Shown: in pieces, positions 13,929 to 36,921 of the stretch | Position numbering within the stretch: position 1 is the first letter of the stretch | Layout of the letters: each line of letters starts with the position of its first letter | DNA from: Rhytidiadelphus loreus | Lineage: Eukaryota > Streptophyta > Bryopsida > Hypnales > Hylocomiaceae | Reading direction: 5' to 3' | Length of the DNA: 64,000 nucleotides | Assembly: GCA_947034895.1 (NCBI GenBank) | Contig: OX344764.1 | Span: forward strand, 50,821,348-50,885,347 | Program-made: the position numbers and the translations under genes | Notes under the pieces: model-generated | What the model saw: only the letters and a program-made list of their open reading frames with translations | What the model was told of the DNA's origin: nothing | The model's database searches: none

Positions 13929-14087
13929 CAGGGTTGTTCGCTGCAACAACACGACACCGCGACAGACAGACGTCGCGCGACGTCTAATAGAGCCCGCGCG
14001 ACGTCACGAAAAGTCAAATTTACCTTTGACTTTACAGGAAATTACCCCCCTCCAGGTGGATGCCACATGGCATCCACTTGGCAAATT
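13929..14087 (+). repeat. Left terminus of giant hAT element
   Basis: After the terminal repeat come clustered GACGTC and CGCGCGACGTC motifs (about 13970-14005). The same motifs, inverted, occur within 100 bp of the right end (about 36845-36890). Such subterminal motifs are the expected transposase-binding region. A perfect short palindrome, GGATGCCACATGGCATCC, lies near 14058-14075. Confidence 0.75.
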
Positions 14088-14500
14088 GGAGGGCGCGTAC
14101 GGGTAGGAGAGTGCGGGTAGGGGCGACTGCGGGTGGAAGAGGGCAACTGTGGGTGGGCGACTGCGGGTGGACGAGGGCGACTGCGGGTGGGTGACTACGG
14201 GTGGGCAAGGGCGATTGCGGGTGGGCGACTGCGGATTTCTGAGGGAGACCGCGGGTGGGCGACTGCGGGTTTGGCAGGGAGACCGCGGGTTCAGGAAGTG
14301 TTCTTGGGTGGGAGACCGCGGGTGCGCAAAAGGTACCTAGACCCGGTGGTGGAACCAAAGTCGCCCTCTCGAGACCCGCTGTCACCCTACCCAAACCCGC
14401 AGTCGCCCTACCCTGACCCGTAGTCGCCCTATCCAGACCCGCAGTCGCTGGATACGCAGTTGCCCTATCCGTACTCGCCCCCCTAGACCGAAGTCACTCG
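14088..14500. repeat. ACCCGCAGTCGCC array 1 (left end, upstream of cargo gene 1)
   Basis: GC-rich degenerate tandem array. From 14088 to about 14330 it reads GGCGACTGCGGGT on the plus strand (outward towards the left terminus); after the switch near GGTACC at about 14332 it reads ACCCGCAGTCGCCC towards gene 1. Spacing is irregular, roughly 12-25 bp. ORFs of 60-120 residues run through the array in several frames because it lacks stops; they are not genes. Confidence 0.9.
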
Positions 14501-14564
14501 CCTTATATAGCTAGTAGCCCATCATCATGCTATCACCTTCATTTTCCATTGAGGCTTTCTGTCT

Positions 14565-14600
14565 TGCAACCTTTGTTGGCTGCATGCGTGACCCTTTTGG
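14565..14600 (+). promoter_or_regulatory. Shared cargo promoter module, gene 1
   Basis: Contains CTGTCTTGCAACCTTTGTTG followed by GGCTGCATGCGTGACCC. This matches the module between array and start codon of four other cargo genes (21111-21180, 24983-25058, 26735-26790, 29741-29812). It lies 65-100 bp before the ATG at 14665. Confidence 0.6.
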
Positions 14601-14664
14601 ATAATATATATACTATTTTTTGCTATCATTTGGTTCTTACAATTTTGCGACGTCCACAAATCTC

Positions 14665-17170
14665 ATGGCAACTGGAGGTAGCAGTGATGGGTCCCTTCCG
14701 GGTTTTTCCACTGTACGCACTCCTGGTGCAATTAGGAAGGCTGCCAAAGACAAGACTAGAAAAAGGAGGGGTAACATTCACAAGAAGCGATGGCATGTGT
14801 TGAACAATGATAACCACCTAGCTTTCAAAGGGTGGAACGAGGAGCCAGAGCCTTGGAGTATGCAGGTTTGCGAAGACTACATTGAATGGTGTCACATCGG
14901 GAAGTTCTTTCCGGCATGGCGCCATCATCACAACCGACACAATAACAAGGCAAATTTGAAGTATTGTGAAAATCCAGCTTTCATATGAAGGTGTTTAGAA
15001 TTGTGGCAGGTCCTCTACAAAACCCCTTTTGTAGATAGGAATGAGGCCCCTTTGTTCATTGCTAGAGGTGCCTATGCTGAGGTCGCCTTGAACAAACAGG
15101 TTGACTGGACCACAATCAAAGAAAGTACCTACGTGGAGCGTCCAGAAGTTGGAATAATTCCAAGAGGGGTTCTCAAATTTCTGGAGGGTGGACTTGGGCC
15201 TTTTCGAAGTGATCCACAAAACAAAGAAATTCAAGAGGTGGACACGGAAGAATCAGAAGAGGATAATGATTCAGATGGCACACGGATTCCTAAGCTTGTA
15301 CGAGTGAAGGAGCAGATTATCACCCCCGTCCAAGTTCCAGTTCCAGTTCCAGTTCCAGATCCAAATGTTCAAGCCGCTTCATCATCGCAGGGAAAGAAGA
15401 TGAAACATCCTGCCAAGGTGCGACAGTCCACCATGAAAATTAGATTGGCATCAGCCTCAACCACAATTGCGACTCCAATCTTGCCACCACAAGACGCCAG
15501 CAACGTCTTCGACTTTGCTTTAAGTGACGACTCGCCCGTATGTGCCACAAGTCACATTCCCATTCCACAATCTGAATCTGATGTTGTTCACAATGCGATG
15601 ACGTTGGCGAAGGCTCTCGACCTCTTGAAGACCAAGGATGCACAAATTGCAACCTTAGAAGGTGATGTGAAGAAATGGCGGTCTACATGTGAACAAAAAA
15701 ATGCTCTCATTTCTCAACAATCCAAAGAATTACAAGGCCTTCGAGAAAAAGAGCGTCAGACTTTCACATTGTCGGACATGGACGAAACCTTTGTTGAGCA
15801 GGATCCACATCACTTGGACAAGCTTGTTGGGGACCTCACCAGCGATGTCATTCACCTTTCTCCCCCTGCCAAGCGTACAAAGCGTTCTTCAATTTTTCCA
15901 ATGGCACCACTTCCGTTCGTCTCAAGAGATTCTAGCAATCCGCACGTTGATGGTTTGCAAGGGACTCAGGATTCACTTTCGTTTCCTGCCATTCCACATC
16001 TACAATCATCAAAGGAACTTGATTTGGCTGAGGAAAATAGAATGCTTTGAGAGAAGTTGGCAATGTTGGCAGCGACATACTATCATTGGAAGGTCACGTG
16101 CATTCTCTCCGTGGATCGATCTCAACAAGTTGCGAAAGAGCTAGACAAAGTTTCGAAGAACTTTGTAGAAAATGCCCCTAAACGAGAGAATGGATTGACA
16201 TCATGGGCATTGATGGAGGACATGTTTCCGGATAACATGTCCATGCTTGACGTGGCGGAAAAAAATGTCATAGACTGGGCACAAAATGGTTGGGACCATG
16301 GAAATCAGATGTCTAGTCACTTCAACGAAAAAGACCAAAGTCTATTGTGGCCAAAGCCAGCTCATTTTGTCTTGGATCATACCAAATGCCCCATATGTCT
16401 AGAACAATTTGGGCCAGAAGGAGGATGGGCACTTGGATCATGTACACATGTGTACCATCCTCAGTGTCTCATCACTCAATGTCTGATTAGACGACGATGT
16501 GTGATTTGTGCAGCACCATTCCATGATCGCTTGTATACCATGTTCAACTTGATGACTTACATGCCACCTTCTTGGGAACACAATAGAGACACGACGGCAG
16601 AGACACGATTTTGAGGACGAGACTTGCTTTGGAGTTGGCGAGAAGGCCTACACGATCAAGAAATGGGAGCTGCTGCCTCACAATTGAATTGGGAAACGGA
16701 CCCGCGTGAAATTCTAAGAGTGGCATTCAACCTTATGGGAAAAAGAGCTCACAATGCAGGGAAGAGGGCGTTTTTTTTTCAATGCCTTGGTGGATATTTT
16801 GATAAGACATCCCAAACCTTCAAGTGGGGTGCTCATCCGGAAGGACACCGTTGGAATTTTGAAGGTGAACAAGGGGCTAATCGTGATGAAAATGCCACTC
16901 CAGAAGACTTGAATAGTATGGCTTATCTCGACTCAACATACGGGCCTTATTATCAAAGCCAAGCACTCGATTATCTATTGGAGTTACACTCTCTGCAAAC
17001 TTGAAGCTCTCAAGAATTCTAATGTCTTGGAATCTATTTTAGAAGCAAATGGACCTGCTTCAAGGACTCGTGCTAAGAAGAAACTCGTTGTTGGAGAGTC
17101 CAATGATTACGAACAAGGTGCAACGAGTGCTTCTCAAAACAATCCAATGGACCCCGGGGAGATCACTTAG
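14665..17170 (+). pseudogene. Cargo gene 1: WCHI-family protein with RING-H2 finger, interrupted by three TGA
   Basis: One reading frame from ATG 14665 to about 17000 (some 780 codons), broken only by TGA at 14986, 16048 and 16612. At 14986 the paralogue at 19426-20916 has CGA (Arg) in the same context, so that stop is a C-to-T change. Residues about 50-165 match cargo genes 2 and 3 (WCHI-x-K-x-FP-x2-RH, then NKANL-x-YC and VDWTT). A variable linker and a coiled-coil-like stretch follow. A RING-H2 pattern has Cys575, Cys578, Cys593, His595, His598, Cys601, Cys612 and Cys615, suggesting an E3 ubiquitin ligase. A frameshift near 16950-16990 moves the coding frame by one, after which about 55 further residues run to a hAT-like MITE inserted at 17153, which replaced the last two codons. 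Overall a decayed gene unless TGA is read through; the RING call is firm, the rest of the function unknown. Confidence 0.7.
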
Positions 17171-17736
17171 TATATTTATAACATACTACGTGTGTTAACG
17201 TGATTTTTTGAACCCCTATATACTTTTTGATAAACTATAATTTCAACCTATAATTTTGAACTTAGTTTAACAATGACTATAGGTTTCCATTGCCGAAAAT
17301 CCCCAACTCAAATAACTTATGAAATGATTTGTAGAAGAGGTTGAAAAATGAACTGAAATGGCATGTTTTTCAACTCAAATATTTATAGAGAATACATTTA
17401 GATGACCATTGCATCAATATTCAAGGATAGTTAACTTTCAATAAAGAGTTATTTTTAGCAATTTTTTGTTCATTTTTTAGACAATTTTTTCTTATATAAA
17501 ATAGGGGTGTGAAAGTTATTTTCAGCTCTACAATGTATCTTTTTTCTTCAAAAATTTGTAACTAATTATAATTAACAAATAAAAATACCAATAATTCACA
17601 ACATAAATTTTCAAAGTAGAAGAATATGCTCATATTTTTTTCTTTTCTTTTTATTTAAATTTTAGGACATAAAATAGGGGGTCCAAAATCTTAACGCACG
17701 TAGTTTCCAATGGACACTCTAAGTGATCTCCCCGGG
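17153..17736. mobile_element. hAT-like MITE with 8-bp TSD (family 1, copy b)
   Basis: A 584-bp element starting CCCGGGGAGATCACTTAG and ending CTAAGTGATCTCCCCGGG, a perfect 18-bp terminal inverted repeat. Perfect 8-bp duplications CAATGGAC lie at 17145-17152 and 17737-17744. The interior matches 1017-1686 and 47677-48303. It landed in the last codons of cargo gene 1: joining the flanks gives a C-terminus Asn-Pro-Met-Asp-Leu-Asn and a TAA at 17751-17753. Confidence 0.9.
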
Positions 17737-17753
17737 CAATGGACTTGAACTAA

Positions 17754-19425: not shown

Positions 19426-20916
19426 CTAAGCATTTTTTTCACTATTCACAAAGTCACTTTCTTTGGGCTCCGGTCTCATTCTTTGAAGTTCCGCACGGGT
19501 GGCACCTATGCCTTCATAGGCCCACTTGCGCCATTCCTTAAAATAAAGGATGTGGCGCTCCAAGTCCAATATGCCCTCGTGCAACAACTCTTGTTTTTTC
19601 TCCAGTAGCTTCACCAAATAAAAAAGCGTTGCTCTTTCTTCTGTATTGCTACCATAATCCGGAGCTAAAGCCAAGATGCCCTCTTTTTTGGCTTCTTTTA
19701 AGGCATCATCATAATATTCCATCTCTAGCTCACGTATTTGAAGATTCAAGCTTCTCCTTTTGCTTTGATGGGACCATTTATCATGTTGCAAAAGATCAAG
19801 TTTATTTTGAAGCACCGCTAAATCATCGGAAATGTGTGCTCGCCCGTCTTCGATCTTCTTGAAATAATTTACTCTACTTTTGTTTAACTTAGAGTAAATC
19901 TTCTCATTTTCAGCAATGGCGTTTTCAGTTGCCTCTAACTCCTTCTTCAACCCATCCACAACAGTTGGATTCACTGGAAGATGTTGTACCTTCTCTTTCA
20001 AATTCATAAGATCCGCTACTGTTGAAGTCAAAGCTGCTCGTGCACTTTCGATCTTAGTGCCCAACATCTCCAAATTGTCTTCCGAATCATTGTCACTGCT
20101 TCCGCTAGACCCAATGTCTGCACCAGAACGGTCCACATTGATCGATACATGAACATCTTCGCTTTGTTTTTGAATCTTGGACAATGATTGCGGCTCCTCA
20201 AGCTTCCTCTTGCCCTTCTTGTCAACTTGAACGTCTTCAGCCGCCTCTTGTTTTTCTTTGCCAATGTCTTCGTCGTCACTCTCAAAAGAATATCCATCGT
20301 ATTCGTGAGTGTGCTCATCTGAGCTAGAAGTTGAAGACCATTGAACTTGGTCATCACCAACAGCCAATTTTCCAGGCTTTGCCTCTAAAAGCTTCTGATT
20401 TGCTTGAAGAAGTCCTTCTTCATCCAGCACTATCGGTCTGTCCGGGCGGTCACCGATAGGAAGCTCCTTCAAGGTTGTCCAATCTACCTTTTTCTTCAAT
20501 TGAACTTCAACGTACACCATTTGCACAAGATAGAAAGAGAAGTTGTCATTTCGATAAGGCTGGGACTCCAAATAGAGTTGCTGCCATACCTCCAAACACC
20601 TTCGCTGGAAGACAACACTCTTGCAGTAAGCCAAATTTGCCTTATTAGACTTCACGTGCAAAGGGTGTCGCCAAAACGGGAACAACTTGTTGATGTGGCA
20701 CCAATCCACATATTTGTTTACAGTTTCATATGTCCAAGGCTCTGGTTCTACTTCCCATTCCAAAAAGGCCTTCATCTTTGGATGCAACAAGATGGGTACA
20801 CGCTTCTTGCGAGGTTTGCCGCTCCTTTTACGATCCTTGTCACGAACCGCCTTTTTGTTGAGCCGAAGTCGGTATCTTGACATATCGTGTGGCGGTTGAG
20901 AGTCCTCACCCTCCAT
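19426..20916 (-). CDS. Cargo gene 2: WCHI-family coiled-coil protein
   Basis: An intact intronless ORF of 496 residues from ATG 20916 (the frame extends to a GTG at 20925, which is not needed). A basic N-terminus (K/R-rich to about residue 40) is followed by the conserved region at about 50-155: a PEPW motif, VDWCHI-x-K-LFPFWRH, NKANLAYC, an RRCLEVWQ helix and VDWTTLKE. An acidic, Ser-rich linker lies at about 190-225 and a long coiled coil at about 290-470. The Cys/His spacing in the conserved region could bind zinc, but I recognise no named domain. The basic N-terminus suggests a nuclear protein. It is the best-preserved member of the three and has no internal stop. Upstream lie the shared promoter module and array 2. 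Confidence 0.85.
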   Translation of the reverse strand: MEGEDSQPPHDMSRYRLRLNKKAVRDKDRKRSGKPRKKRVPILLHPKMKAFLEWEVEPEPWTYETVNKYVDWCHINKLFPFWRHPLHVKSNKANLAYCKSVVFQRRCLEVWQQLYLESQPYRNDNFSFYLVQMVYVEVQLKKKVDWTTLKELPIGDRPDRPIVLDEEGLLQANQKLLEAKPGKLAVGDDQVQWSSTSSSDEHTHEYDGYSFESDDEDIGKEKQEAAEDVQVDKKGKRKLEEPQSLSKIQKQSEDVHVSINVDRSGADIGSSGSSDNDSEDNLEMLGTKIESARAALTSTVADLMNLKEKVQHLPVNPTVVDGLKKELEATENAIAENEKIYSKLNKSRVNYFKKIEDGRAHISDDLAVLQNKLDLLQHDKWSHQSKRRSLNLQIRELEMEYYDDALKEAKKEGILALAPDYGSNTEERATLFYLVKLLEKKQELLHEGILDLERHILYFKEWRKWAYEGIGATRAELQRMRPEPKESDFVNSEKNA

Positions 20917-21110: not shown

Positions 21111-21180
21111 CCCCACAACTCAAACCCCTAGCTTCTGTGCACGCATTCAGCTACGTCAACAGGTGAAAGACAGTGCGCAG
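21111..21180 (-). promoter_or_regulatory. Shared cargo promoter module, gene 2
   Basis: On the minus strand it reads CACTGTCTTTCACCTGTTGA then TAGCTGAATGCGTGCAC and GGGGTTTGAGTT, followed by a G-run and ATTTTTGTCCCTTT. The kinase gene module (24983-25058) shares the whole order, including the G-run and an ATTTTTACCCTTT tail. Confidence 0.65.
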
Positions 21181-21197
21181 AATGTTAGGGAAAATTT

Positions 21198-21585
21198 AAT
21201 GGCGACTGCGGGTGGAGGAGAATGCTGATGTACCTGAGGTCGCCCCTGGGGCGCGTGCGGGTCCTGAAGTGGGGCGAGTGCGGGTCAGCCCAGTGCTCCA
21301 GGGCGACCGCGGGTCCGGAAGTGGGGCGACTGCGGGTCAGCGCAAGTGCTCGAGGGCAACCGCGAGTCCTAGAGTGGGGCGACTGCGGGTCTGGACAGGT
21401 GCTCCAACGCGACCACGGGTCGAAGGAGCCCGGGCGAGTGGGCGACTTCGGGTCCAGGGCGACTGCGGATCCTAAGCGACTGCGGGTCCAGGACGACCAC
21501 GGGTCCACTTTGCGAAGGCGACCGCGGGTCTTGGGCGACAGCGGGTCCTGGGCGACCTCGGGTCCCAGGCGACTGCGGGTCCATC
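21198..21585 (-). repeat. ACCCGCAGTCGCC array 2 (upstream of gene 2)
   Basis: GC-rich degenerate array reading GGCGACTGCGGGT on the plus strand, i.e. ACCCGCAGTCGCC towards gene 2. Variants include CGACCGCGGGT and CGACCACGGGT. ORFs through it on both strands are by-products of its composition. Confidence 0.9.
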
Positions 21586-23327
21586 TATTAATGCATGGAC
21601 TTTTCTTTTCTTTCTTAGTACATGTTTTTAGATTGTGATATTTTTTTCCATTTTTCCTTGCGCTGGGAAAGTGGCGATACTAAATGTTACGGAGGGGCTC
21701 CAAGCTTCAACATTCATCCACGTACTGGATAGAAAATGTGATACTAAGTATCTAAAATTCTATTTTCATTTACATTGTGGCGATTTCATCGAAGACTTTT
21801 CTAGAAGTTGAAGTTTTTCTAGCAATTTCATCCAAAATTTTCCTAAAAAATTCCTATAGCTTATAGCTAGCCTAAATTTTTTGTTGCTTTTGAGCACCAA
21901 ATCGCAAGGGAAAAAAAAAGGATTGTGAGCTCAATCCCATTTGTGTTGCAAAATTTATGGAATACTAGTTTATACTTTATACTATATTTGGGGAGCCATT
22001 AGGGTTGAGGTCGGTTGTGGTACAAATGGATTCCTTATTGATTATCTGAACAGAAGTTAAATCTTTGCAATTGTTTTAGAAGAAGTTCTTGTTAACTAAT
22101 TTTTTTCTTATTAATTAATTTCATTGTTAATTCTTAATTTTATTGTAAATGACTAATTTTATTGTTAATAACTAATTCAATTGTTAATAACCAATGTTAT
22201 GATTATTAACCATTGCAATTGTAACAATAATGTCTTTGTAATTGTTTTGACATGAGATATTCATTATGTATTTTTGGATGTAGACTCAAATTACATACTA
22301 TGTTACACACACTAATTTTGGTAAATTACATGCCTAATAACTAAATTTCTTGTACGGACACAAATCTATAAATGAAAGTCATTGTTGGACTTATATCATA
22401 CTCCAACCATCTATGAAAGAATGTGTGTTTTTATCAATTTGGATGACATATACCAAAAAAAAAAAATATGGTAGGAAAACATTATGCTACTAGGAATAAT
22501 ATATATGGTAAAACCAGATTTACATTTATTATTGAATTCATCCAAGTTTTCTCGAATTGCGTGTTTAATAAATGACAAAGATTATGGCTACATATCTTTT
22601 TTGCAATATCCACTCTTGTTTCATTGTCTCAAAAAAAAAAAGGGTCACAAGAAGTCAATGAACTTCCTTTTTCCAAATAAAATAAATAGGAAGAGAGCGA
22701 AAAAGGTTAAATAAATAAATAAAAACATCTCTCATCTATTTTGAAATAGGTAAAGCCGTAAAGTACGAATAAAAAGGAAAAGTCTAAAAAAGTCTAAAAT
22801 TTATGTTTCCTATATTTGAATTAGAATAAATAGGAAAAAAAAACCAACTTGCTTTTATTTTTGGAAATAGAAAAAATAATAAGAGAATGTAAATGATGTA
22901 TGACTTACATTTTTTTAGGGATTGAAAAAACAACTATTTGAATTCAATGACCATGAAAGTAAAACTCCTTTCAAGTGCATACTAGCACATTTTATTCAAG
23001 AAATAATACAAGTCTTCAACATCAATTACCAACTAATTTATTTTCATTTTCTTATTTTCCTTGCGTCCATTATATACTACGGAATCAAAAAGGACCAAGA
23101 ACATTTGAATTCAAAAGTTGTTATACTTTGCATAACAATGTGTAAAAGGCCATATTCAATATATACAATTTGACAAATAGCCCATTGAGTAATTGTTTTT
23201 CTAAAGACAAGGCACATAGCATAAAATTCCTTCATATATTATAGGAAAATATTACAAAGTAAGCAACACATAATTGGCCACCAAGCTCATTGCTTGCAGC
23301 ACTAAACTCTTGCTCTAGAATATTCTA
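21586..23327. other. Intergenic DNA inside hAT element
   Basis: AT-rich. A degenerate minisatellite with ATTGTTAATAACTAATT-like units lies at about 22085-22230. Short ORFs (22484-22714, 22922-23173) have no recognisable domain. The 3' end of the kinase gene follows. Confidence 0.5.
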
Positions 23328-24920
23328 TTACAAAGGTGAGTCTCGGAACACCAATTCGGGGGGCATCATGGACCATGGTGGAGACATAAGGGAATTTGTG
23401 ATCTCTATACACGTTGGTCTCTTCTTTGGGTCAGTGTTCACAAGTTCACGCAACTTCATTCCAAAGTACATTGATCCCTCGCGGTTCTTGAACAAATCCT
23501 TGTCCCAATCGTCCATATCACCAATTCTCATCCATTCGGTCAACTTCCCAATAGAATACGAGTTTGACTGTTGCGTATATTTATACCGTTGTTGCATGAT
23601 CGGTATGCTTGTATCGGAATTTGGAGGTCTATATGCATAAAACAACTCCGGGGCAACCCACCAACGACCTTCTCGGTATTGATCCCTCTCGGCCTCAGAT
23701 GACTTTCCAAAATGTGAAGGCGCGTTTTCGTCAAAACAACTTGATATTCCAAAATCACAAATTCCAATGTTGATTATGTCGTTTGAATAATCCGGAAAAT
23801 GCAACATGATGTTCATGGGAGACAAGTCATTGTGTAGCACGCGGCACTTGTGCATCAGATTTGTCACATATACTAAAGCCCATGCCAACTTTGCCTTGTG
23901 CCTTCGGAAGAGACCAAGTTCTTTTTGTTTCTCTTCAGGAAGTCTTGTGGCTTTTTGCATTTCATGCCAGTCAATGGTTGGTGATACAGAACGATCTAAA
24001 TGCCTCAACTCATTCAAATAGCCCCCATTCCACCACAAAGTGTATGCTTCATTCGTGCGAGAATGAATGGCAAAAAACTTAATGATGCCAGAGTGGTTCA
24101 AGGGGCATGCAAGGGCCTCCATGGATCGTTGCGCTCTCCCCTCGCGCAGGTTTATTGCCTTGGATACTTTCCCAGCAAAAGCGATGTAGCTTGGAATTGT
24201 ATCAATTCCTTCAATGCGTACCTTACGCACTTTTGCATACCCCCCTTCACGTTCAAAAGCACTAAGGGGCACCACTTTCGCCGTATCGGGGATCCACGTG
24301 ATACACAATCCACCATCTCGTGCAAATGCTGCCTGCACCGCTGCATTTTTCCACTTAAAACCCCTTGCCGAGCCTCTTGCCAATTTCTTCACTGCGTTGG
24401 ACCACCACTCCATTTTTTGGCGGAATGCCTTGATGTCTTCTGATTCCTCTACTATCGGAAGTAACGGTCGATGTTCCTCCATCAATTTCTTGGTATTGAA
24501 CATCACCGCTTTCAATGTGTTATCAAGCCATTCAAATAGTCTCGAAGAATATGTCAAGTCAATGTCTGCGAAATCATCGGATCCCTTTAGCTTGGTTAAA
24601 ATCCGTGCTTGTAAATCGTTTGGCAAGGCCACACTACCAGTTGTAGGACACCTCAAATAGCTTGCCTCCAAGAATTGTACACTTTTTCCTGCGTACCACT
24701 GGAGACACGCTTCGTATGCATATCGGGTATAACTCGGGGGAGGATAGTTGGAGTCCTTGTCATGTGCTGACTTCTGCTTCTTGCCCTTCCGTCGCTCTTG
24801 ACTCCCTCCTTCTTCGTTTTCATTTACAGCTATCGGAACCTCGAAAAAAATTGGATCATCGAGGTCCAGATCCCATAAAGACTTTCTCCTTGTAGTGTTG
24901 CCTTCATGTAGAAAAGCCAT
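23328..24920 (-). CDS. Cargo protein kinase (divergent Ser/Thr-like)
   Basis: An intact intronless ORF of 530 residues from ATG 24920. Residues 1-200 are not recognised, with a basic stretch at 42-50. A protein-kinase fold follows: candidate ATP-binding Lys251, helix-C Glu268, catalytic loop LHNDLSPMN (363-371) with HND in place of HRD but Asp365 and Asn370 kept, DFG at 389-391 and APE at 423-425, ending in a conserved-looking Arg/Pro motif near 501. The glycine loop is weak (EREGGYAKV at about 223-231). The catalytic residues suggest activity is possible; the substrate is unknown. It is read away from the spliced gene at 26890-28214, with arrays 3 and 4 between them. Upstream it has the shared promoter module and array 3. 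Kinases are unusual cargo for a DNA transposon. Confidence 0.85.
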   Translation of the reverse strand: MAFLHEGNTTRRKSLWDLDLDDPIFFEVPIAVNENEEGGSQERRKGKKQKSAHDKDSNYPPPSYTRYAYEACLQWYAGKSVQFLEASYLRCPTTGSVALPNDLQARILTKLKGSDDFADIDLTYSSRLFEWLDNTLKAVMFNTKKLMEEHRPLLPIVEESEDIKAFRQKMEWWSNAVKKLARGSARGFKWKNAAVQAAFARDGGLCITWIPDTAKVVPLSAFEREGGYAKVRKVRIEGIDTIPSYIAFAGKVSKAINLREGRAQRSMEALACPLNHSGIIKFFAIHSRTNEAYTLWWNGGYLNELRHLDRSVSPTIDWHEMQKATRLPEEKQKELGLFRRHKAKLAWALVYVTNLMHKCRVLHNDLSPMNIMLHFPDYSNDIINIGICDFGISSCFDENAPSHFGKSSEAERDQYREGRWWVAPELFYAYRPPNSDTSIPIMQQRYKYTQQSNSYSIGKLTEWMRIGDMDDWDKDLFKNREGSMYFGMKLRELVNTDPKKRPTCIEITNSLMSPPWSMMPPELVFRDSPL

Positions 24921-26790: not shown

Positions 26791-26889
26791 TTGTGGAGGT
26801 CTCGTGGTTTTTTTGGTTTCTCACAAACAGCCAACAATACAGCAGACACTTCTTGTATACTTCAATGAACCCAAAATCTTTTCCATTAG

Positions 26890-28214
26890 TTTAGGATAGT
26901 GAGAATATCAAAGCCATTTGATGTAGAGGGCCTTGAAACGGCAATTGCATTCATTGTGGCAAAGTTGTTGAATAATAAGGATGCACACACAAATGGGTGT
27001 CAAGTCACCAAAAAAGGGTACACTAAATTCACATTTAAAACAATTAGCAATTCAAATGAAAATGATTCATTTGGTTCTTCATTGATTCTCTTTCATTTTT
27101 GGGTGTTATAGTAACGTAGGGGGGCCTCAATTGTTATGTAGACTATTCAAATTTAATCTTCTTGCATTGCTAATGATTAGTTATTTGGCTCCTTACAGGC
27201 TTAATGGCAGGTGTTCAATTTAGCAAGTGCTCAGAGGAAGTCATAATTATTCTCGACCATGAATATTTCCGGTAAAAATTTGTTTAGTTTGCCTTTGACT
27301 TCCTTATTGTCATCCACTTGTATTGTAGACAATGTCTTTTTAATAGGTGGGAGAATCACCATGACAATGACTATTCTATTGGAATTGATTTGTGATCTTT
27401 GAAATAGGATTAAGGACTTTTGGAAAGGCTACAAATTGTATTGCTTTGCTCATTATGGCCAGTGCAATGAGTCCAAAGGCCATTTCCAAGCCAGCAAAAT
27501 GGGTGAGTAAAATATTGCCCTTCATTTTGTATAGGTGATTTGAATCCTTGAATAATGAAATGAACATGTATTAATGAACATTTCTAGTTGGATAGTTGGT
27601 GGTGGACATTTCATCTCACTATTAGTGCTTATTTGCTGTAGGACGAGTGATGTGTTTGATACAAAACACATGCGATATTGTTTGGGGAGCCAAATTTGAT
27701 GAGGCCATTAGGGAGGGGTGGGCCATGATGGAAGAATATATGTGGGTTCGGCAAGGAAAAGATTGCACAAACCTCAGGTTCGGTTGTTCTAGTATAGAAC
27801 TTGTATTATAAGATTATATGCTAAAAATACCCATATGTAGTTGTTATGTTTTAATATTCATTGATATGGGGGGCCGGGAGATGCAGGGCTTTATTAGAAG
27901 AATTTGAGGATGTCGAGAAACTTTCCGAGTCTGAGAATGGATGCTTGTTGTTACAACTCATTAAGGTTAGTGCAATACCACAACACGAGTTAATATACTT
28001 GCTAGGTTAATATTGTTTGTACCCCATTCTGTGAATATCATATGTACTAATGACAATTCCACCTTAGGATGATGAGCACGGGACGGAACGCGCATTTACA
28101 CAATCTCTGAGCGTTCAAATCAACACCACGGATATCTTTGAGCAGACCAATAATAGGTTAAACCAAGCTCGCGCAAACTTGGACAACCTTGTGCCACGGG
28201 CAAATTATTCGTGA
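26890..28214 (+). CDS. Cargo spliced gene of unknown function
   Basis: Predicted from splice sites and phase-compatible reading frames: an upstream exon within about 26890-27111 (N-terminus unresolved), then 27199-27271, an optional 18-nt exon 27329-27346, 27408-27502, 27642-27777, 27887-27965 and 28068-28214 ending in TGA. Every junction has GT-AG ends and keeps one frame. The last exons encode about 175 residues, including a Trp/Cys/His-rich stretch in the 27408-27502 exon (DFWKGYKLYCFAHYGQC) and an exon with WGAKFDEAIREGWAMMEEY. I recognise no family. It is the only cargo gene with clear introns; the first exon and true ATG (perhaps near 26776-26790) need transcript data. Array 4 and the shared module lie directly upstream. 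Confidence 0.55.
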
Positions 28215-29465
28215 CTAAAGACATTGTTGTGGTGCATCAAACGGCAGCCTTGTACCATGGCATAAGACCCTATTTTGATTTTTGAGTTGGGATCATAAAA
28301 AGAAATAAATTATTTATGAAGATAATAGTACTAAAGTCATGCTAGACATGTGAAATAGCAATGTGCTTGACAAAGAACTTCATTTTACATTTCTATACTA
28401 TGATTTTGCTAAACAATGCATGGATTGTTTATTCCAGATGGATGATCATATTTTGCTAAACAGTCCATGGTATATGAATGTTTAATTGATTAGTGCCCAA
28501 TACTTTAATGGTTTACATATGTGACCCCTCCCAAAAAATATATACCCATAAATGTGACCCCCCCAATAAAATATATACCCATAAATGTTGTGGCTTGTTA
28601 TTCATGGTTCACAAGTTTGAAATCCCCAAATATTGAAAATGTACAAATGTATGCCCTTGATTTAATCCCTTTGTTTGTAAATATGATGGCTACGCTTTTA
28701 ATTAATATGAAACAAGTTTTATTGTTTGGATACCTATGAATGTACAGATAAATAAAATTTGAACAAAACCATGAAATCAGCTGGGAAATAGCTATGACAA
28801 TTAATTGTGACAATTAGTTCCCAGCTACACCTTCACGGTGCTTGATGAAGCACATGATGAAAGTTATATGGGAGCTCATGCTGTCACACCCAATCCTTAT
28901 GGGATATTTGAACAACCATCTTACTACACCTATCCTATGCATTGTATAATTGATTATATTGAGTTTTGTTCTCTCACGCAATTTATAATGTGTCAATCAC
29001 ACTTGACCATAAATGAATAAAAGGTATTTATCCCTCAATTCCCAAATCCCTTCTTTTGGAGCTCTCCGAAAGTGGTCTACATTGATCAAGAATCCCACAT
29101 TCTTCATAGTTTGATCTTGTTTTACAATGGATTCATCATACAAATTCAAACTAAACATAATAGAGATTGCATTGGAAAATAAAACGCAATTATGTGAATC
29201 ATGGATGGTAAATTTCTTATATTTGATTATTTTCTTATTGAAATTGCAGAAGTGATGTTAGGGTGGGAATCCTCTTTTTGCATGTCAAATCTAATAAGTT
29301 GCAACAATAATTAATAAAATGGCTAAAGATGCATAACCCAAATTTTTAAATAAAAGATGAAAAGGTGCAATACATTTTTATGAAGTGCATTGGTAACTAA
29401 AATTTATGTCCACAATTTTGTGTAAGAGAACTTCAAAGTGAAAGTCTTAGAGGTTCAGAAATTCA
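28215..29465. other. Intergenic DNA inside hAT element
   Basis: AT-rich. A 33-bp direct duplication (units starting GTGACCCC and ending ACCCATAAAT) lies at 28521-28586. Overlapping small ORFs at 28521-29020 on both strands show no domain. Nothing else recognised. Confidence 0.5.
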
Positions 29466-29705
29466 AAATCCCGCCCTGTACCCGCAGTCGCCCACCCGCG
29501 GTCGCCCCACTGTAGGGGTCTAGAAATTACTCTGTGGTGCCCCACACGCGGTTGCCCATCCCCAGTAGCCCCAGACCCGCAGTCGCCCTACCCGCAGTCG
29601 CCTTCGCAGTCGGCCCCTTAGACCCGCAGTCGCCCTACCCGCGGTCGCTCTCAGACCTGCACGCGCCCCTTCCCGCACTCGCCCCAGGGCGATTGCGGGT
29701 TAATT
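29466..29705 (+). repeat. ACCCGCAGTCGCC array 5 (upstream of gene 3)
   Basis: Units ACCCGCAGTCGCCC and ACCCGCGGTCGCCC reading towards gene 3, with one inverted unit (GGCGATTGCGGGT) at the gene-proximal edge. Confidence 0.9.
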
Positions 29706-29740
29706 AGCTATCTCCCCACCCGACTTCGCTACTTTCCCTT

Positions 29741-29812
29741 CTTGCTGCGTACTGCCTTTCACCTACTTTACAGTGGCTGATTGCGTGCCCGGGAGCTTGG
29801 GTTTTGAGTTTC
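29741..29812 (+). promoter_or_regulatory. Shared cargo promoter module, gene 3
   Basis: CGTACTGCCTTTCACCTACT then AGTGGCTGATTGCGTGCCC and GCTTGGGTTTTGAGTTTCA. Same order and spacing as the gene 2 and kinase modules, about 150 bp before the ATG. Confidence 0.65.
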
Positions 29813-29963: not shown

Positions 29964-31571
29964 ATGGCGGACCACAAGAAGAAGACCAAGGCAAAAGGAG
30001 CCATGCACCCTAGGCAATGACGCATCCTTTTGGACCCAGCGTGTGTGGCCTACCGAGGTTGGGATCGAATTACGGGCCACCGGACCGCCAAGACTTGTAA
30101 GTCCTTTGTGGGGTGGTGCCACATCGACAAGTTATTCCCCTATCATCGGCACTACACGAATCGGCGCAACAATACAGCCAATTTGCATCCATGCCGTAAT
30201 GATGCATTTGTGCAACGTTGTATCGAAATTTATCGATACTTGTATGGCACATATTCAGTGTCCAGGAGCGAAGTCCCGTATTTCATATGTGCAATGGTGT
30301 ATGCGGAACTCATTTTGTTTCGAAGCGTGGATTGGAGTTCAATCAAGGGAGTGAAGCATGCTCGCCTTCCACCGACAAAAGACATCCCAAGGGCGGCTCT
30401 ATCTGCCAATCCACGTGAAGGGCTAGGCCAGAAGAAAAACTTGAAGGAGGGAGTGCCCGATGAGCAGTTTCATTGGACGTCATCTGATTCATCTTTGGGA
30501 GAGGAAGACAACCTTGGTGAAGACCCTCCAATGCAGCCCCAAAACATGGCGATGGTAGCTTCTACTTCACAAAATTTACCTCCCCCGAGAATGGAAGAAG
30601 AGGGTGAACCAGCTAGGCAACCACAAAATCTTGATATTTTGCCTCTTGCTATGGTGAATCCGATTACAGTCCCTCGCACTGAAGAAGACGAAGTTTTGCA
30701 GTATGTGCTTGCATGCATGCAAGAAGCAGAAGATGATGTTTTTTGGACAGAGATGGAAACAGAAGAAGATGTGAAGCCTTCTTTGTTCCAATTGGATTGT
30801 GTTGATGACATGTACCGAAGTGAGGAATTTGTTGAAGATGGAACTGTCCCTGACACAGTAATGTTGGACACCAAAGTTGTTTACAAAGCTCAACTCAAGA
30901 AGCTTCTAAATGAGTTGGATGAAAAGCATCTAGAATGTGAGAAGCTTCGCAATCAAGAAACGCAAACTTTGAGTGGAGATATTGTGAATAGCTTACGTGC
31001 TGAACTTGAAAGTCGGCAAGTTCTTTTGTCAACGCAAATAACAAAGATTTTAGACTTGGAAGCATTTTACCTTAGATTCTCTTCTCGGCATGCTGGAGGA
31101 TCTAGTTCTTCTAGCAATGAGTTTGCGAAATCACGGCTTGCCAAAATTATGGAAGCATGCAAGCTGGAGGAAGATCAGATAGACTTGGAGAAGCGAGGGG
31201 TGGAAGAAGCACGATCAAGATTAAATTCCTTGAAAGCATTAAAGGACAAAGCCCCCCTTGACCGTGTTGCAGAAATGTGTGGTTGGAAAGACGTGGCTAC
31301 TAAACAAGCATTGTCTCTTACGGAAGTAGTTGACTTGAAAAAGAAGCTTGGGGTTTCTTTGTCATTGGATCCAAAATTGGAAGAACATCGGGATGCACTG
31401 AAGGCGGTTTTGAAGTTCCAAAAATTATACAAGCAATTTTGGTTGGAAAAGAAGTTGGGGAAGGATGACTGATACCTTAGGAATTTGCAGTTGGAAGGTA
31501 AGAAAGTCTTGTATGAGATGGAACGTGAGGCTCATGACCGCAAAGAAAAGGCCAAAATGGATGTTGAATGA
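29964..31571 (+). pseudogene. Cargo gene 3: WCHI-family coiled-coil protein with two in-frame TGA
   Basis: A single frame of 535 codons from ATG 29964 to TGA 31569, interrupted only by TGA at 30018 and 31470. The codons before 30018 give a Lys-rich start like gene 2; those after 31470 continue as a charged helix for 32 residues. The conserved region (WCHIDKLFPYHRH, then NNTANL-x2-C and VDWSSIKG) is followed by an acidic linker and coiled-coil-like segments. A second-best start would be downstream of 30018, with no obvious promoter. Either a recently inactivated gene or one expressed by read-through. Function unknown, as for gene 2. Confidence 0.75.
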
Positions 31572-31892: not shown

Positions 31893-32046
31893 ACGGCTAG
31901 GGTGAATTGACCTACTCATTGCCACTCCAGGGCAAACACTAGAATTTTTTATTTTCAAGGCTTATTTTTTTAGTGGAAATTCTGAATTCATAGTTTCAAT
32001 TATAGGCCCCAAATTACCCCAGGGGATGCAAGAATTATCCAAACAA
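31893..32046. mobile_element. Truncated GAATTGACC-type MITE
   Basis: Starts AGGGTGAATTGACC and matches the first 150 bp of the elements at 42449-42676 and 43025-43250, including AATTTTTTATTT, GAAATTCTGAATTCAT and GGCCCCAAATTAC. It breaks off exactly where array 6 begins, so the second terminus was lost. Confidence 0.8.
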
Positions 32047-32320
32047 ATGGCAGTCGCCCGTTCCTGGACCCGCAGTCGCTTGTTTCTGGACCCGCAGTCG
32101 CCCATTACTGGACCCGCATTCGCCCGTTCCTGACCCGCAGTCGCTTGTTTCTGGACCCGCAGTCGCCCATTACTGGACCCGTGGCGCCCACTTCTGGACC
32201 CGCAGTCGCCCACTTCTGGACCCGCTGTCGCCCAATCTTGGACCCGCAGTCGCCCATCACCTAACTGATTTCAGGTTTTTGGACCCGCATTCTCTCATGG
32301 GGCGACCGCGGGTCCAAGGA
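32047..32320 (+). repeat. ACCCGCAGTCGCC array 6 (upstream of transposase)
   Basis: The most regular array: about ten units of roughly 22 bp, TGGACCCGCAGTCGCCCATT and variants (GTCGCTTGTTTC), reading towards the transposase; the last unit (GGCGACCGCGGGT) is inverted. This gene lacks the promoter module shared by the other five. Confidence 0.9.
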
Positions 32321-32598
32321 GTTTTCTTGTATAAAGTTCTAGGGGTACCCCTTGTTTTATCACCTTGGCTTCGTTGATAAAACTCTTGTCTTGGACCTTT
32401 GAAAGAGGCTTCATGCGAACGTTTAACTTCTTCGGAGGGCAACAACCGTGTTTAGAAGGGTTTACAAGACCACTCTAAGCGGGTTGCTTTGTCATTACAT
32501 CTTCCATAGTATTAGTGTGATTATTGTAGTCATTTTCTTTGAAGACCCAGTGTTGATCTACTACATGGCTGGGACAAGGTGTTGGGAGGGGGGGGACC

Positions 32599-32838
32599 AT
32601 GAATGATACGCGAAGGTCCACAAAGGATTGGGACCCTTGGCTAGTACCGTGTACCCCAATTGATAATTCCCCCCATGCTCGAAAATGCGTGTTTTGTGGG
32701 TGGAGCAAAGCATTTGTACGAAAGAGAGCATTGATTCACTTTGGCTATGGCGGCTCGACTACATCGGAGCGTTGTAAGGAGATCCCTAGAATTATATGAG
32801 AAAAGTTTCGGACTGGCGAGGGACAAGTTCCAAGGTCC
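32599..32838 (+). pseudogene. BED zinc-finger segment of the hAT transposase, cut by TGA
   Basis: ATG 32599 opens a frame encoding a BED-type finger (KCVFCGWSKAF, then IHF and ERCKEIP) that ends at TGA 32797-32799 and continues in the same frame through 32838 into the 1000-residue transposase ORF. BED fingers are the N-terminal DNA-binding domain of hAT transposases. The spacing to the TGA is too short for a plant intron, so this is one gene with a single nonsense codon; the full frame would be 1080 residues. Confidence 0.75.
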
Positions 32839-35800
32839 ATGAGTTACGAAGAGATGTATGATGCACCGGCTAGACATGATGCACCAGTTAATGTTACAGA
32901 GTCTATTGTCGCACCTGCGTTGGATGTCGAAGAAGAAGGGTCTCTCAATCCCTTTGAATCAAATGCAAGACCAAATCCTACGCCTGATTCAGTAGATTCT
33001 ACTGGAACAACGCTTGAGAGAAGGAGGAACATGCCATCTGTTTCTCGGCAAAGAAGCATGGATGAATCATTACAGACGGGCCGCAGACAAGAGTTGGATA
33101 GGTTGTGGGCTTCTTTCTTTTACGAGGCGAACATTTCATTTAATGTTGTGCGCCACCCGGCCTTCGTGAATGCTGTTAAACAAACTGCAGCAGCTGGATT
33201 CGTGTACCAACCGCCACCGTATAATGCGATTCGCACGAAAATGATAGATGTTAAGAAGGCATCGGTTGAAGCCATGGTCTCGGAGCGGACGAGGGTTTCA
33301 ATAAGTCAGTATGGAGCGACAATTTGTTCAGATGGTTGGTCCGATACTAATTCGCGGTCGTTACTAAATATGATGTTGGTGTGTCCCGCCGGGGATGTCT
33401 TTTGGGGATCAGTGGATAGTACTGGGGAGAAGAAGGATATATCTTACACGACTGAGACGATGGCACGATACATTGAGGAAGTTGGGCCTACCAACGTTGT
33501 GCAATTGTGTACGGACAATGCTGCAGTCATGACGGGGGCGATGGCAAGGTTGGAAGAAAGGTACCCTCACATTTATAGGCAGGGTTGTGCGGCACACATT
33601 TTGGACTTACTCTTAGAAGACTGGGGAAAGGATCAGAGAGTAAAGGAGTTGGTAAAAAAGGCTTCATCAATTGTGAAGTTCATCAAGAAATACCAACATA
33701 CTTTGGCGTTGTTTCGGAGATTTGCACCAAACAAAGTGTTGAGACTTCCAAGCAAAACACGTTTTGCCACAAATTTCTTGATGATTGATCGTTTGGTAGA
33801 CTGCAAGCAAGTAGTGCACAACGTGACATTGGATGAGACATACATGACGTTCGAGTTGAGTTTGCAAAACCGCAGAAATGGACATTTCATTATGGGCAAG
33901 GCCAAACTTGCAAGGCAAGATATCCGTTCAGAAGAGTTCTGGATTCAGTGCGACAATTTCCTCCATATGGTAGAACCCGTGCTGCTTTGTCTTCGTCATT
34001 TTGATGGAAAAGTCCCGGCAATGCCGAAAGCTTTAGTAATGATGACAGCCTTGAAGGAGCACATTTATTCTCTCAAGAATGCTCCATTTTTCCTTGATCC
34101 AGTGGTGGCAACACGATATGAGAAACAATTTGATGCTCGCTGGAAGTTGATGATTACTGACCTACACTATGCGGGGGCACTACTAAATCCATACTTGAGT
34201 GACGTGGAGGTTATTCATAACAATGGCTACGCGAAGGGAGCTTTGAATCGAGTCATACGAAAACTGAGCGTACCATTGAACGTGTCAGTGGTGGAAGCAA
34301 TGCAGGAGCTAACTCAATTTGAAGAGAAGACAGGTGCATTCGATCCTTTACATGAGGCTCCCGATATCATTGAATGTCAATTATTGCCTCATCAACGGTG
34401 GAATCGTGTGGGGGGCAATGCTCTTCTAAAAATTGCAAAGCGAATTCTTGGTTTGACGTGCTCTGCATCTTCGTGTGAAAGGAATTGGAGCATGTATTCC
34501 TTTGTGCACAATAAAGTGCGAAACCGCTTGGCCACGACAAAGGCGGAGACATTGGTGTATATCTACGCGAATAACAAACTTGAACGTCAAAAACGTGGAC
34601 ACAACCTAGCCATTTTTTACGACCAGATGCTTGCAGATGGAGACGATGAGGACGAGCGTGATGGGCCTTTGTCTTCAGGGGAAGAAGACGACGTTGTTCC
34701 AGATTTTATGAGAGAAAGCGAGAACCGCAGGGATGAAGAGGATCGGTTGCGCAACAATCCTTGGAATGCAATGGTTAGGCTGCCACATAGTCCTCCACGA
34801 CCAATATACGGGAATACATTTGATTTTAGTGACAATGGGTATGTTTCTCCTGGAAATTCATTTGTACGCAGTCCACCGCAGAACGTCGTGCACAATATGG
34901 ATGCAATTTCGCCGGCACATGTATCACTGAGGAGGGAAAGCACCCCCGACAACAACAACGAAGGCGTACCTATTTCCATGGCACCCGTAGAGGAAGAAGC
35001 TAGATCTCCAATATCAACTAGTTCGCCTCCAAATATGGCCCGCAATTTAAGAAGCAGTGCACAAGTTCCAATGAGAAGCGAACATGAAGAAGAGGCCATC
35101 GAAGTCAATGAAGTTGTACACGAGGGAATACCAAATCCCGTTGTATTGAACGCATCTACCCTCGGAACAACTGTTACTACAGATGATGATGATAATGTGC
35201 CATTGGCATATGTTATGAATCGAAGTCGGAATGTGCCGTTGAATCCAAAGACGACTACAAATGTGGCAACAGTGAGGAGGTCTACCCCAACCCTTCCAAC
35301 AAGGCCACCGGTGCGTGGAGGTGCTCTACGGACGATTGATGAAGAGGTTCACGGCTCAGCTCCACAACCCACTCAACCTTCATCCGTGTCTGGCCCTGGC
35401 AAATCATCATTAGGAATCCAGGGGCGCAACAGTAGAGGCCAGAAAAGGCGTATTAGGAGGGTTGACGAGAGGGGACCTCGAAATCCTAAACGACCCACTC
35501 AAATTGTCCAACGGTGTACCATTGGAGCGGGATGTTCCACCCAGAATGTTGGACAATCAAGTAGAGGAAGGCGACACCCTGCATCCAACATGGATGGAAC
35601 TACGGATGCGTTGAGGCTCACGAAACGACTTGTGCAAACTGAAGGGTTCAGTGGTGTAGATACAGAAGTTCGAAATCTGAACTCAGAGGTAGAGCGTGAG
35701 GTACAAATCGAAGTAGTAACAAGGGAAGATGATGAAATCGAAAGCTCGGGCGACAACAGGAGCAACGAAGAGTCTTACGAAGATACAGACCCTAATGCTG

Positions 35801-35841
35801 ATGAGGTGCCGAGCGATTCCACATTCACGCCTGGTGACTAG
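32839..35841 (+). CDS. hAT-family transposase (DUF659 and hAT dimerisation domains)
   Basis: A 1000-residue ORF. A DUF659-type core at about 125-275 includes CSDGWSD (catalytic Asp165) and CTDNAAV (Asp226), followed by the hAT CxxH motif (Cys250, His253). The C-terminal hAT dimerisation region has SCERNWS (catalytic Glu547) and VRNRLATTKAETLVYIYANN. All three DDE residues are present. Residues 600-1000 form a long acidic, Pro/Ser-rich tail not usual for the family. Without the BED segment the DNA-binding domain is missing, so activity depends on whether the TGA at 32797 is bypassed. It would mobilise the 13929-36921 element by excision and reinsertion with 8-bp duplications. Located near the right end, read towards it. 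Confidence 0.93.
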   Translation: MSYEEMYDAPARHDAPVNVTESIVAPALDVEEEGSLNPFESNARPNPTPDSVDSTGTTLERRRNMPSVSRQRSMDESLQTGRRQELDRLWASFFYEANISFNVVRHPAFVNAVKQTAAAGFVYQPPPYNAIRTKMIDVKKASVEAMVSERTRVSISQYGATICSDGWSDTNSRSLLNMMLVCPAGDVFWGSVDSTGEKKDISYTTETMARYIEEVGPTNVVQLCTDNAAVMTGAMARLEERYPHIYRQGCAAHILDLLLEDWGKDQRVKELVKKASSIVKFIKKYQHTLALFRRFAPNKVLRLPSKTRFATNFLMIDRLVDCKQVVHNVTLDETYMTFELSLQNRRNGHFIMGKAKLARQDIRSEEFWIQCDNFLHMVEPVLLCLRHFDGKVPAMPKALVMMTALKEHIYSLKNAPFFLDPVVATRYEKQFDARWKLMITDLHYAGALLNPYLSDVEVIHNNGYAKGALNRVIRKLSVPLNVSVVEAMQELTQFEEKTGAFDPLHEAPDIIECQLLPHQRWNRVGGNALLKIAKRILGLTCSASSCERNWSMYSFVHNKVRNRLATTKAETLVYIYANNKLERQKRGHNLAIFYDQMLADGDDEDERDGPLSSGEEDDVVPDFMRESENRRDEEDRLRNNPWNAMVRLPHSPPRPIYGNTFDFSDNGYVSPGNSFVRSPPQNVVHNMDAISPAHVSLRRESTPDNNNEGVPISMAPVEEEARSPISTSSPPNMARNLRSSAQVPMRSEHEEEAIEVNEVVHEGIPNPVVLNASTLGTTVTTDDDDNVPLAYVMNRSRNVPLNPKTTTNVATVRRSTPTLPTRPPVRGGALRTIDEEVHGSAPQPTQPSSVSGPGKSSLGIQGRNSRGQKRRIRRVDERGPRNPKRPTQIVQRCTIGAGCSTQNVGQSSRGRRHPASNMDGTTDALRLTKRLVQTEGFSGVDTEVRNLNSEVEREVQIEVVTREDDEIESSGDNRSNEESYEDTDPNADEVPSDSTFTPGD

Positions 35842-36360
35842 AGTACTAGAGAAGTAGACAATAATTATAGTTATAGTTATAGTTATAATTATAGTTATAA
35901 GGTTTTAGCTTATATGTTAGGTAGCAAATCTTTGTAGTTCAAGCTTTGAGCCTTCATCCTAATGTGTAAGGATTTTGTAATGCTTCATCAAGCATATGAG
36001 CATATTAGAGTGAAGGACAGATTACCGGTTTTAAAATATATGTTGAGTTCTAATTGGTAGGCAGTTAGGTGATGACTGCAACGAGGTTATAAAAGTGCAA
36101 TGCAAGTATGGCTACATTTGAAGTCCGCCTGAAAGCAATATCGATGACTTATTAATATAATCGTTGTTGACATTATTATTGTGGCCTTATACTGGGTGAA
36201 TTTTTGGGATTAGAGAAGTTTGTCCAATTTACATTTCATGGGCTCTATTATTTGCGCTTGTAAATTGTAAACCCCAATATAACGTAGCACCTAATTCTGC
36301 GCTTATAAAACATCTATGTGACGTGTTACTTCAAAGACTGAATATGCCAAACTCAAATCC
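35842..36360. other. 3' flank of transposase gene
   Basis: Starts with a (TATAGT)n-like microsatellite at about 35862-35900, then AT-rich sequence. Probably 3' UTR and spacer. No gene seen. Confidence 0.5.
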
Positions 36361-36365
36361 TAAAC

Positions 36366-36732
36366 TGAACCTACGGTCGCCCTGGAACATGCGGTCGCTG
36401 TCTGCTGCTCCGACCCGCAATCGCCTTGTAACCTGTAGTCGCCCCTACCTGTCGGACCCGCGGTCGCCCTCAGTACCCGAAGCCGCGGTCGCCCCTTCAC
36501 CCGAAGTCGCCCTAAAGCCCCTGACCCGCAGTCGCCCACTCACCCGCAGTCGCCTTCAAGCCTAAACTCGCAGTCGCCTCTATTTTTTCCACCCGAGGTC
36601 GCCCCTTCACCCAAAGTCGCCCTAGCGCCCCAGACCCGCAGTCGCCCCTTCACCCGTAGTCGCCTCAATTTTTCCACCCGAGGTCGCCCAAGGCAGACCT
36701 GCACACGCCCACACCTGCAGTCGCCCATGCTG
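36366..36732 (+). repeat. ACCCGCAGTCGCC array 7 (right subterminal)
   Basis: Units ACCCGCAGTCGCC, ACCCGAGGTCGCC and ACCTGTAGTCGCC reading outward towards the right terminus, the mirror of the outer half of array 1. No gene follows within the element, so here the array is purely subterminal. Confidence 0.9.
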
Positions 36733-36921
36733 GCTGTCCACGTCAGTTCCGAAGCCCTACCACGTAGGCAAAATCTATTTACCATGGGGTAAAATTTTTT
36801 ACCCCTCCGCGATGCGATGTCAAGTAAACTCGACACTTCATGACACGCGACACGCGACACGCGACGTCAGACGTCATACACGACGCCTAAACCCAAAAAT
36901 ATGTCAAACAAGACAACCCTG
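36733..36921 (-). repeat. Right terminus of giant hAT element
   Basis: Contains a GACACGC triple repeat (about 36843-36862), GACGTCAGACGTC (about 36864-36876) and the terminal CAACCCTG. It ends at 36921, with the TTAGAAAG duplication at 36922-36929. Mirrors the GACGTC-rich left terminus. Confidence 0.75.

Follow-up and report, generated by a model that had tools for sequence, protein, structure and literature searches.

A candidate cargo-bearing hAT transposon of 23 kb on contig OX344764.1 of Rhytidiadelphus loreus

Cargo-bearing transposons and the locus studied

The transposons of the hAT superfamily are described as typically less than 5 kb in length, with terminal inverted repeats (TIRs) of 5-27 bp and target-site duplications (TSDs) of 8 bp (PMC10741241). 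We analyzed a stretch of 64,000 nucleotides of the Rhytidiadelphus loreus contig OX344764.1 (from here on, the window), in which one segment of 22,993 bp (13929-36921) has the ends of a hAT element and contains a hAT-type transposase gene, a protein kinase gene and three paralogous genes that we call g1, g2 and g3. Plant elements that carry gene sequence of other kinds are known, and two of these, Pack-hAT and Pack-CACTA, have no transposase. The same is described for the Pack-MULEs (PMC6446971), and Pack-hATs are reported to carry captured pieces of genes (PMC8903248). Mutator-like elements (MULEs) with extra open reading frames such as vanB and vanC have also been described (PMC6446971). In the VANDAL group, the protein VANC is reported to bind a short motif that is tandemly repeated in the non-coding parts of the element, including the part upstream of the transposase gene VANA, with loss of methylation as the outcome, and the target motifs differ among related VANDALs (PMC5735166). 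The Kaonashi MULEs are described as carrying a conserved ULP1 gene, an accessory gene of the ubiquitin-like-modifier type in a plant transposon (PMC13317346). No word beginning with 'hat' occurs in the available text of a 2026 review of plant gene capture (PMC13317346), and no multi-gene hAT of the kind described here was named among the top-ranked literature matches.

The 22,993-bp segment is very probably a hAT-superfamily transposon that carries cargo of its own lineage. A single large cargo-bearing insertion is well supported because the expected ends, the duplication, the transposase and a set of motif arrays confined to the element within the window are all present, and because a relative of g1 lies beside a related transposase in another contig. 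The best overall explanation, which we hold to be likely, is that of one hAT transposon with its own cargo, in which the arrays serve as common recognition sites and which has partly decayed since its insertion.

Ends, transposase and gene content

The left terminus, CAGGGTTGTTCG..., starts at 13929 and the right terminus, ...ACAACCCTG, finishes at 36921. The element begins with CAGGGTTGT and closes with the inverse of the same sequence, a perfect TIR of 9 bp that lies within the 5-27-bp range given for hATs (PMC10741241), and an exact 8-bp duplication, TTAGAAAG, is found directly outside both ends (Table 1). Taken alone TTAGAAAG is not rare, with 4 occurrences in the window and a mean of 4.04 in shuffles, and we therefore looked across the entire window for all 9-bp inverted pairs that are flanked by exact 8-bp duplications and lie 200-45,000 bp apart. 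This exhaustive search returned 15 cases, 12 of which have self-palindromic duplications and are attributed to inverted duplications in the flanks; the remaining three are the 23-kb element, a nested miniature inverted-repeat transposable element (MITE) of 584 bp and one AT-rich pair. The same search in 60 dinucleotide shuffles gave 0-2 cases each, none with a CAGGG start. Chance ends were rejected on the basis of the exhaustive search and the shuffles, and the inverted ends and perfect duplications that had been reported for this locus in the initial annotation are borne out.

The search for paired ends also bears on a composite origin, in which several smaller one-gene hATs, each with its own arrays, would lie nested in or adjacent to one another and their outermost ends would mimic those of a single unit. 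Each gene unit does have its own array resembling the terminal arrays, and the arrays at 25.4 kb and 26.3 kb duplicate one another, as a composite would lead one to expect. However, the search found no internal element other than the MITE (degraded ends would be missed), and the only internal CAGGGTTGT, the third of the window (33580), is coding sequence of the transposase for a conserved Q-G-C. The orientation of the arrays, moreover, tracks the genes and not paired ends, and in the related contig L001, described below, a transposase part and a g1 relative adjoin without an intervening CAGGG or CCCTG and with no 7-bp inverted ends with an 8-bp duplication anywhere in the contig. We consider a composite very unlikely.

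The transposase frame matches the Pfam family DUF659 (E 9.8e-36) and contains the motifs CSDGW, CTDNA and CERNW at 33325, 33508 and 34474, which we take to be the putative catalytic D/D/E of a hAT transposase. A C-x2-C motif is present in its N-terminus at 32686-32709; the Pfam family zf-BED had no match in the N-terminal 66 amino acids, nor in the relatives P0012 or P0030. At least 57 relatives were found at E up to 1e-10 among 7998 candidates scored, and the best three among those scored have 65%, 53% and 58% identity; this search and the corresponding one with g2 scored only the approximately 8000 candidates with the most words in common with the query. The transposase alignment had no match at E 0.1 among the sequences of the PDB.

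The paralogues g1, g2 and g3 have an N-terminal domain in common, to which g1 adds a RING-H2 finger. Pfam gave no family above its cut-off for g2 and g3 and the best match of the family among PDB sequences was only E 0.38, and on these two results a known fold was rejected. At least 10 relatives of g2 were found among 8000 candidates scored, and for five of these relatives the alignment covers 95-99% of g2, with 47-50% identity. The kinase is a divergent one, and its group includes 58 relatives with identities of 68% and below; K251, D365, N370 and D389, which are presumably its catalytic positions, are invariant among the window kinase and the 11 of the 58 relatives chosen for alignment. A profile comparison found the kinase and g2 profiles to be unrelated, and a tree of the N-terminal domain was unresolved and was not used.

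With these results the initial annotation, which listed a hAT transposase with all three catalytic residues and five cargo genes (a kinase, three paralogues and a spliced gene), holds for the transposase, where the domain match and the three motifs were found and the catalytic roles are putative, and for four of the cargo genes, namely the kinase, g1, g2 and g3. The fifth, the spliced gene at about 26.8-29.4 kb, did not hold up as coding sequence. Pfam gave two sub-threshold matches only for the 8 of its 36 translated pieces (at least 38 amino acids) that were tested, and a codon-bias scan marked four stretches on the plus strand, two of them overlapping, and three on the minus strand. The coding-like stretches of the plus strand are 26911-26997, 27635-27763 and 28068-28262, and they are weak evidence because the scan tracks GC content and flags the arrays as coding. 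The CpG value of the unit is low (0.35), and what it has in common with the gene units is a 5' promoter-like cassette of array and leader.

A kinase, a RING protein and several undefined genes beside a transposase recall the gene sets of large DNA viruses, and we considered whether a fragment of a virus or virophage had become endogenised and gained a hAT. Six scans of viral contigs, which employed g2, the transposase, alignments of kinase, transposase and g2, and the array pattern, gave no relative, and the element frames scanned with Pfam contained no viral hallmark family. A viral origin was rejected on the outcome of the six scans, and we regard it as highly improbable.

This copy of the element is damaged. 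Premature in-frame stops are present in g1 (three, at 14986, 16048 and 16612), in g3 (one, at codon 19) and in the transposase (one, at codon 67, 32797), and g1 has by eye a change of frame near its end; all five stops are TGA, with no TAA or TAG among them, and the frames of g2 and the kinase are not interrupted. A reading of TGA as a sense codon is not supported and CGA-to-TGA decay at methylated CpG would be the simpler reading, because the relatives have, by eye, no single residue at the TGA positions and because g2 and the kinase are free of stops. A repeat of about 160 bp (31892-32052), located just before the transposase array, also occurs in the right flank at 82-86% identity. Because of the TGA stops, the nested MITE and this flank-shared repeat the copy is probably neither recent nor autonomous. 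The element had been called complete, which is correct for its ends and incorrect for its genes, since g1, g3 and the transposase are interrupted by TGA. It had also been proposed that the whole interior moved as one unit, for which the ends, the duplication, the transposase and the arrays argue, with the exception of the nested MITE, which has a duplication of its own, and of the 160-bp flank repeat. Partial relatives of the MITE are found in both flanks (1202-1635 and 47728-48140) at 85-87% identity.

Motif arrays and linkage of transposase and cargo

The 12-bp motif GCGACTGCGGGT has 92 matches in the window at up to two mismatches, and all 92 are inside the element. They form nine blocks, located at the left end, at the right end, and 5' of g1, g2, the kinase, the 26.8-29.4 kb unit (two blocks), g3 and the transposase. 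The terminal arrays are mutually inverted, with 12 of 12 matches on the plus strand at the left end and 15 of 15 on the minus strand at the right end, and 58 of the 65 gene-proximal matches read ACCCGCAGTCGC on the sense strand of their unit. At up to one mismatch there are 67 matches in the element versus 0 or 1 in 30 shuffles of it. Between the array and the coding part a leader is common to g2, the kinase, the 26.8-29.4 kb unit and g3 by BLAST, and its core 18-mer GTGGCTGAATGCGTGCCC has at up to three mismatches only five matches in the window, these being the four leader units and g1, and none in 40 shuffles. The counts for the motif and the leader are partly circular and are given as description, because the motif and the 18-mer (for four of its five matches) were chosen from the element itself; the placement and orientation of the arrays relative to the genes is the more independent part of this evidence. 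Two array regions, 25401-25516 and 26278-26397, are duplicates about 880 bp apart with 85% identity, and this suggests that the arrays may have grown by local duplication. Rfam returned nothing above its gathering scores over 13900-37000.

Transposases of the hAT type bind subterminal repeats, a property with which a study of Tgf2 is reportedly concerned. The arrays could accordingly be merely transposase-binding sites, or CpG-rich structural repeats spread by slippage and gene conversion, and the cargo could be expressed independently of them. The transposase unit, which has an array but no leader match by BLAST or by the 18-mer search, and g1, the leader match of which is weak (three mismatches, and not matched by BLAST with the remaining leaders), would suit such repeats. 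Slippage alone, however, does not predict arrays 5' of all six units, their prevailing sense orientation or a clear leader in four units, and we consider this account possible but rather unlikely. Common regulation of the cargo through the arrays is an interpretation by analogy toward which we lean somewhat.

One scan of genome contigs with the transposase alignment gave one relative among 42 pattern matches. This contig, CADCWO010000266.1 (L001, 6291 bp), is labelled as a Synechococcales metagenome-assembled genome (MAG) and is probably mis-binned eukaryotic DNA, that is, a eukaryotic contamination of a prokaryote MAG. One transposase relative, P0013, is named as a protein of a Bacilli MAG and is likewise a probable eukaryotic contamination. 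The contig L001 encodes the C-terminal part of a hAT transposase, with 47% identity over 244 amino acids, and adjoining it an intact g1 relative of 855 amino acids that has both the N-terminal domain and the RING finger; the g2 query matches this protein at 32% over 121 amino acids, and the RING segment of g1 matches it at 34% over 184 amino acids (E 1e-29). Among the other relatives, the g2-like protein P0003 and the kinase P0068 come from contigs of identical size (6460 bp), as do the transposase P0044 and the kinase P0098 (6480 bp). Two pairs of equal size compare with 0.086 expected, and two or more were obtained in 14 of 5000 jittered trials under the same rule that the contig must be large enough for both proteins; these equal sizes only suggest linkage of the kinase with g2 and with the transposase, because the paired proteins come from partly different sources.

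The linkage is of importance for passive capture, the proposal that an ordinary hAT picked up host genes that have no role in the element. Pack-hATs with captured pieces of host genes are described from maize and rice (PMC8903248), and the 26.8-29.4 kb unit, with its low CpG and no recognisable protein in the pieces tested, could be captured host DNA. By contrast, all four identified cargo genes have an element array at their 5' side, three of the four with a clear leader, and all four are long frames without apparent introns. The g1 relative beside the L001 transposase and the linkages suggested by the equal contig sizes also speak against passive capture, which we find unlikely.

Besides the circularity of the motif counts, the mixed sources of the paired contigs and the missing or weak leaders of the transposase unit and g1, several observations weigh against the interpretation of the locus as one hAT transposon with its own cargo and regulatory arrays. 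The element is known here from one copy, in a 64-kb window. The Dimer_Tnp_hAT domain (PF05699) of the window's transposase has an E of 0.0011 and a score of 19.2 bits versus the Pfam cut-off of 21.4, which is passed by the four relatives tested (P0012, P0030, P0044 and L001). The motif GCGACTGCGGGT has no match in L001 at up to two mismatches and one match at three; no array was found 5' of the g1 relative of L001, and the contig has a 21-bp CG-rich array of its own, different in sequence and about 750 bp downstream of that gene. The transposase part of L001 has, by eye, a change of frame near nucleotide 110. Finally, a third pair, P0005 and P0075, also has exactly equal contig sizes (2045 bp) and was set aside since a contig of this length could not contain both proteins, so chance size matches do occur. 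One large hAT insertion with cargo, as initially annotated, is upheld by the ends, the TSD, the transposase, the arrays and the neighbourhood in L001, and it has to be given without the fifth gene, without intact genes throughout and with a nested MITE. The features of the element are listed in Table 1.

Table 1. Positions of the features of the 23-kb element and its duplicated target site in the window
Feature	Positions	Strand	Description
TSD, left copy	13921..13928		8 bp, TTAGAAAG; sequence match
Left end	13929..14340	+	CAGGGTTGT terminus, CG-rich subterminal repeats, GCGACTGCGGGT array (12 matches, all +)
g1 cassette	14341..14640	+	promoter-like; array, 4/4 matches ACCCGCAGTCGC in gene sense; weak leader match at 14576
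g1	14665..17004	+	paralogue-family N-terminal domain and RING-H2 finger (16387-16509); three in-frame TGA
Nested MITE	17153..17736		584 bp, at the 3' end of g1; ends CCCGGGGAG, 8-bp duplication CAATGGAC; not cargo
g2	19426..20916	-	paralogue of about 496 aa, intact; no family above the Pfam cut-off
g2 cassette	21137..21620	-	promoter-like; leader 21137-21154; array, 14/14 matches in gene sense
Protein kinase	23328..24920	-	530 aa, intact; HND..N and DFG motifs
Kinase cassette	25010..25230	-	promoter-like; leader 25010-25027; array, 4/5 matches in gene sense
Duplicated array region and leader	25231..26786	+	leader 26769-26786, facing the + unit; 20/24 matches sense
Unit initially annotated as spliced gene	26800..29450	+	weak coding-like stretches on both strands; not confirmed
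g3 cassette	29440..29790	+	promoter-like; array, 7/8 matches sense; leader 29773-29790
g3	29964..31472	+	third member of the paralogue family; 502 codons, in-frame TGA at codon 19
Transposase array	32030..32330	+	5' of the transposase; 9/10 matches sense; no leader match
Transposase	32599..35841	+	DUF659-type hAT, 1080 codons; in-frame TGA at codon 67 (32797)
Right end	36380..36921	-	array (15 matches, all -), CG-rich subterminal repeats, inverted CAGGGTTGT terminus
TSD, right copy	36922..36929		8 bp, TTAGAAAG; sequence match

The DNA on both sides of the element (164-11140 and 37174-49145) contains several germin/oxalate-oxidase-like genes, which lie in large duplications, both inverted and direct, of up to 98% identity. 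Three of these frames match Cupin_1 (E 9.5e-49 to 3.1e-47), and the genes match oxalate oxidase structures (E 1.1e-54); genes of this kind point to a plant host. Further to the right are a kinase frame that is less unusual in type than the element kinase (53136-54065, plus strand; Pkinase, E 4.7e-73), a perfect AT-dinucleotide microsatellite of 65.5 copies (61749-61879) beside a 52-bp tandem repeat (61881-62266), and a long frame with a DDE_Tnp_1_7 domain (62309-64000, minus strand; E 3.5e-75) that runs past the window end and is presumably of piggyBac type.

Proposed behavior of the element and comparison with known systems

The proposed history is that of an insertion as one 22,993-bp unit followed by partial decay. 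From hAT biology, the transposase would cut at the ends and move everything between them. The arrays are putative binding sites of an element-encoded protein, which may be the transposase or a member of the g1/g2/g3 family. Because the two ends and all six units have an array, the units at their 5' side, one factor may recognise the ends and the promoters alike, and the cargo would then be expressed together. The arrays may further serve to protect the CG-rich ends and promoters of the element from inactivation by host DNA methylation, in the manner of VANC in VANDAL, and the RING protein and the kinase may modify host or element proteins. Anti-silencing is the leading candidate for the purpose of the arrays, and we propose it only tentatively, by analogy. 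It is likewise conceivable, although we would not assume it, that the element represents a new lineage of giant multi-gene plant hATs with a conserved core set of transposase, kinase and RING/N-domain family and with an element-wide code against host silencing, in which an element-encoded protein would read one short CpG-containing motif at both ends and at each promoter, convergent with VANDAL and VANC.

If this 23-kb hAT does have conserved cargo of its own and a motif common to its promoters and ends, then self-regulated transposons with several genes have also arisen in another superfamily. The element allows a direct test of the arrays as targets of element-encoded anti-silencing proteins. 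It is also a caution that kinase and RING genes counted among the host genes of such genomes may be carried by transposons.

The element can be compared with five described systems. The fungal Starships are also very large DNA elements with cargo genes. Starships use a tyrosine recombinase, whereas the present element has a hAT transposase, an 8-bp duplication and a plant host, and the element frames scanned with Pfam, a subset of all frames, included no tyrosine-recombinase captain gene. The Kaonashi elements share with it a conserved accessory gene of the ubiquitin-like-modifier type, which is ULP1 in a MULE there and a RING-H2 gene together with a kinase in a hAT here. The Pack-TYPE elements (Pack-hAT, Pack-CACTA and Pack-MULE) are likewise DNA transposons described as holding extra gene sequence inside a TIR and TSD (PMC8903248), but the present element differs from a Pack-hAT in having a transposase gene, with one TGA, and cargo with element-type arrays.

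The VANDAL and Hiun MULEs, with VANA, VANB and VANC, resemble the element in combining a transposase with extra genes and tandem arrays of short motifs, which is an analogy and not a membership. The divergence of target motifs among VANDALs would fit the different array of L001. Their transposase is of the Mutator type (MULE) and their accessory proteins are others, whereas the transposase here is hAT/DUF659 and the anti-silencing role is a proposed one. With the hAT superfamily the element shares the short inverted ends of CAG type, the 8-bp duplication, the DUF659 transposase and, in its relatives, a dimerisation domain above the cut-off; it departs from the superfamily in its length, 23 kb versus typically less than 5 kb (PMC10741241), in its four or more extra genes and in the arrays common to their 5' sides.

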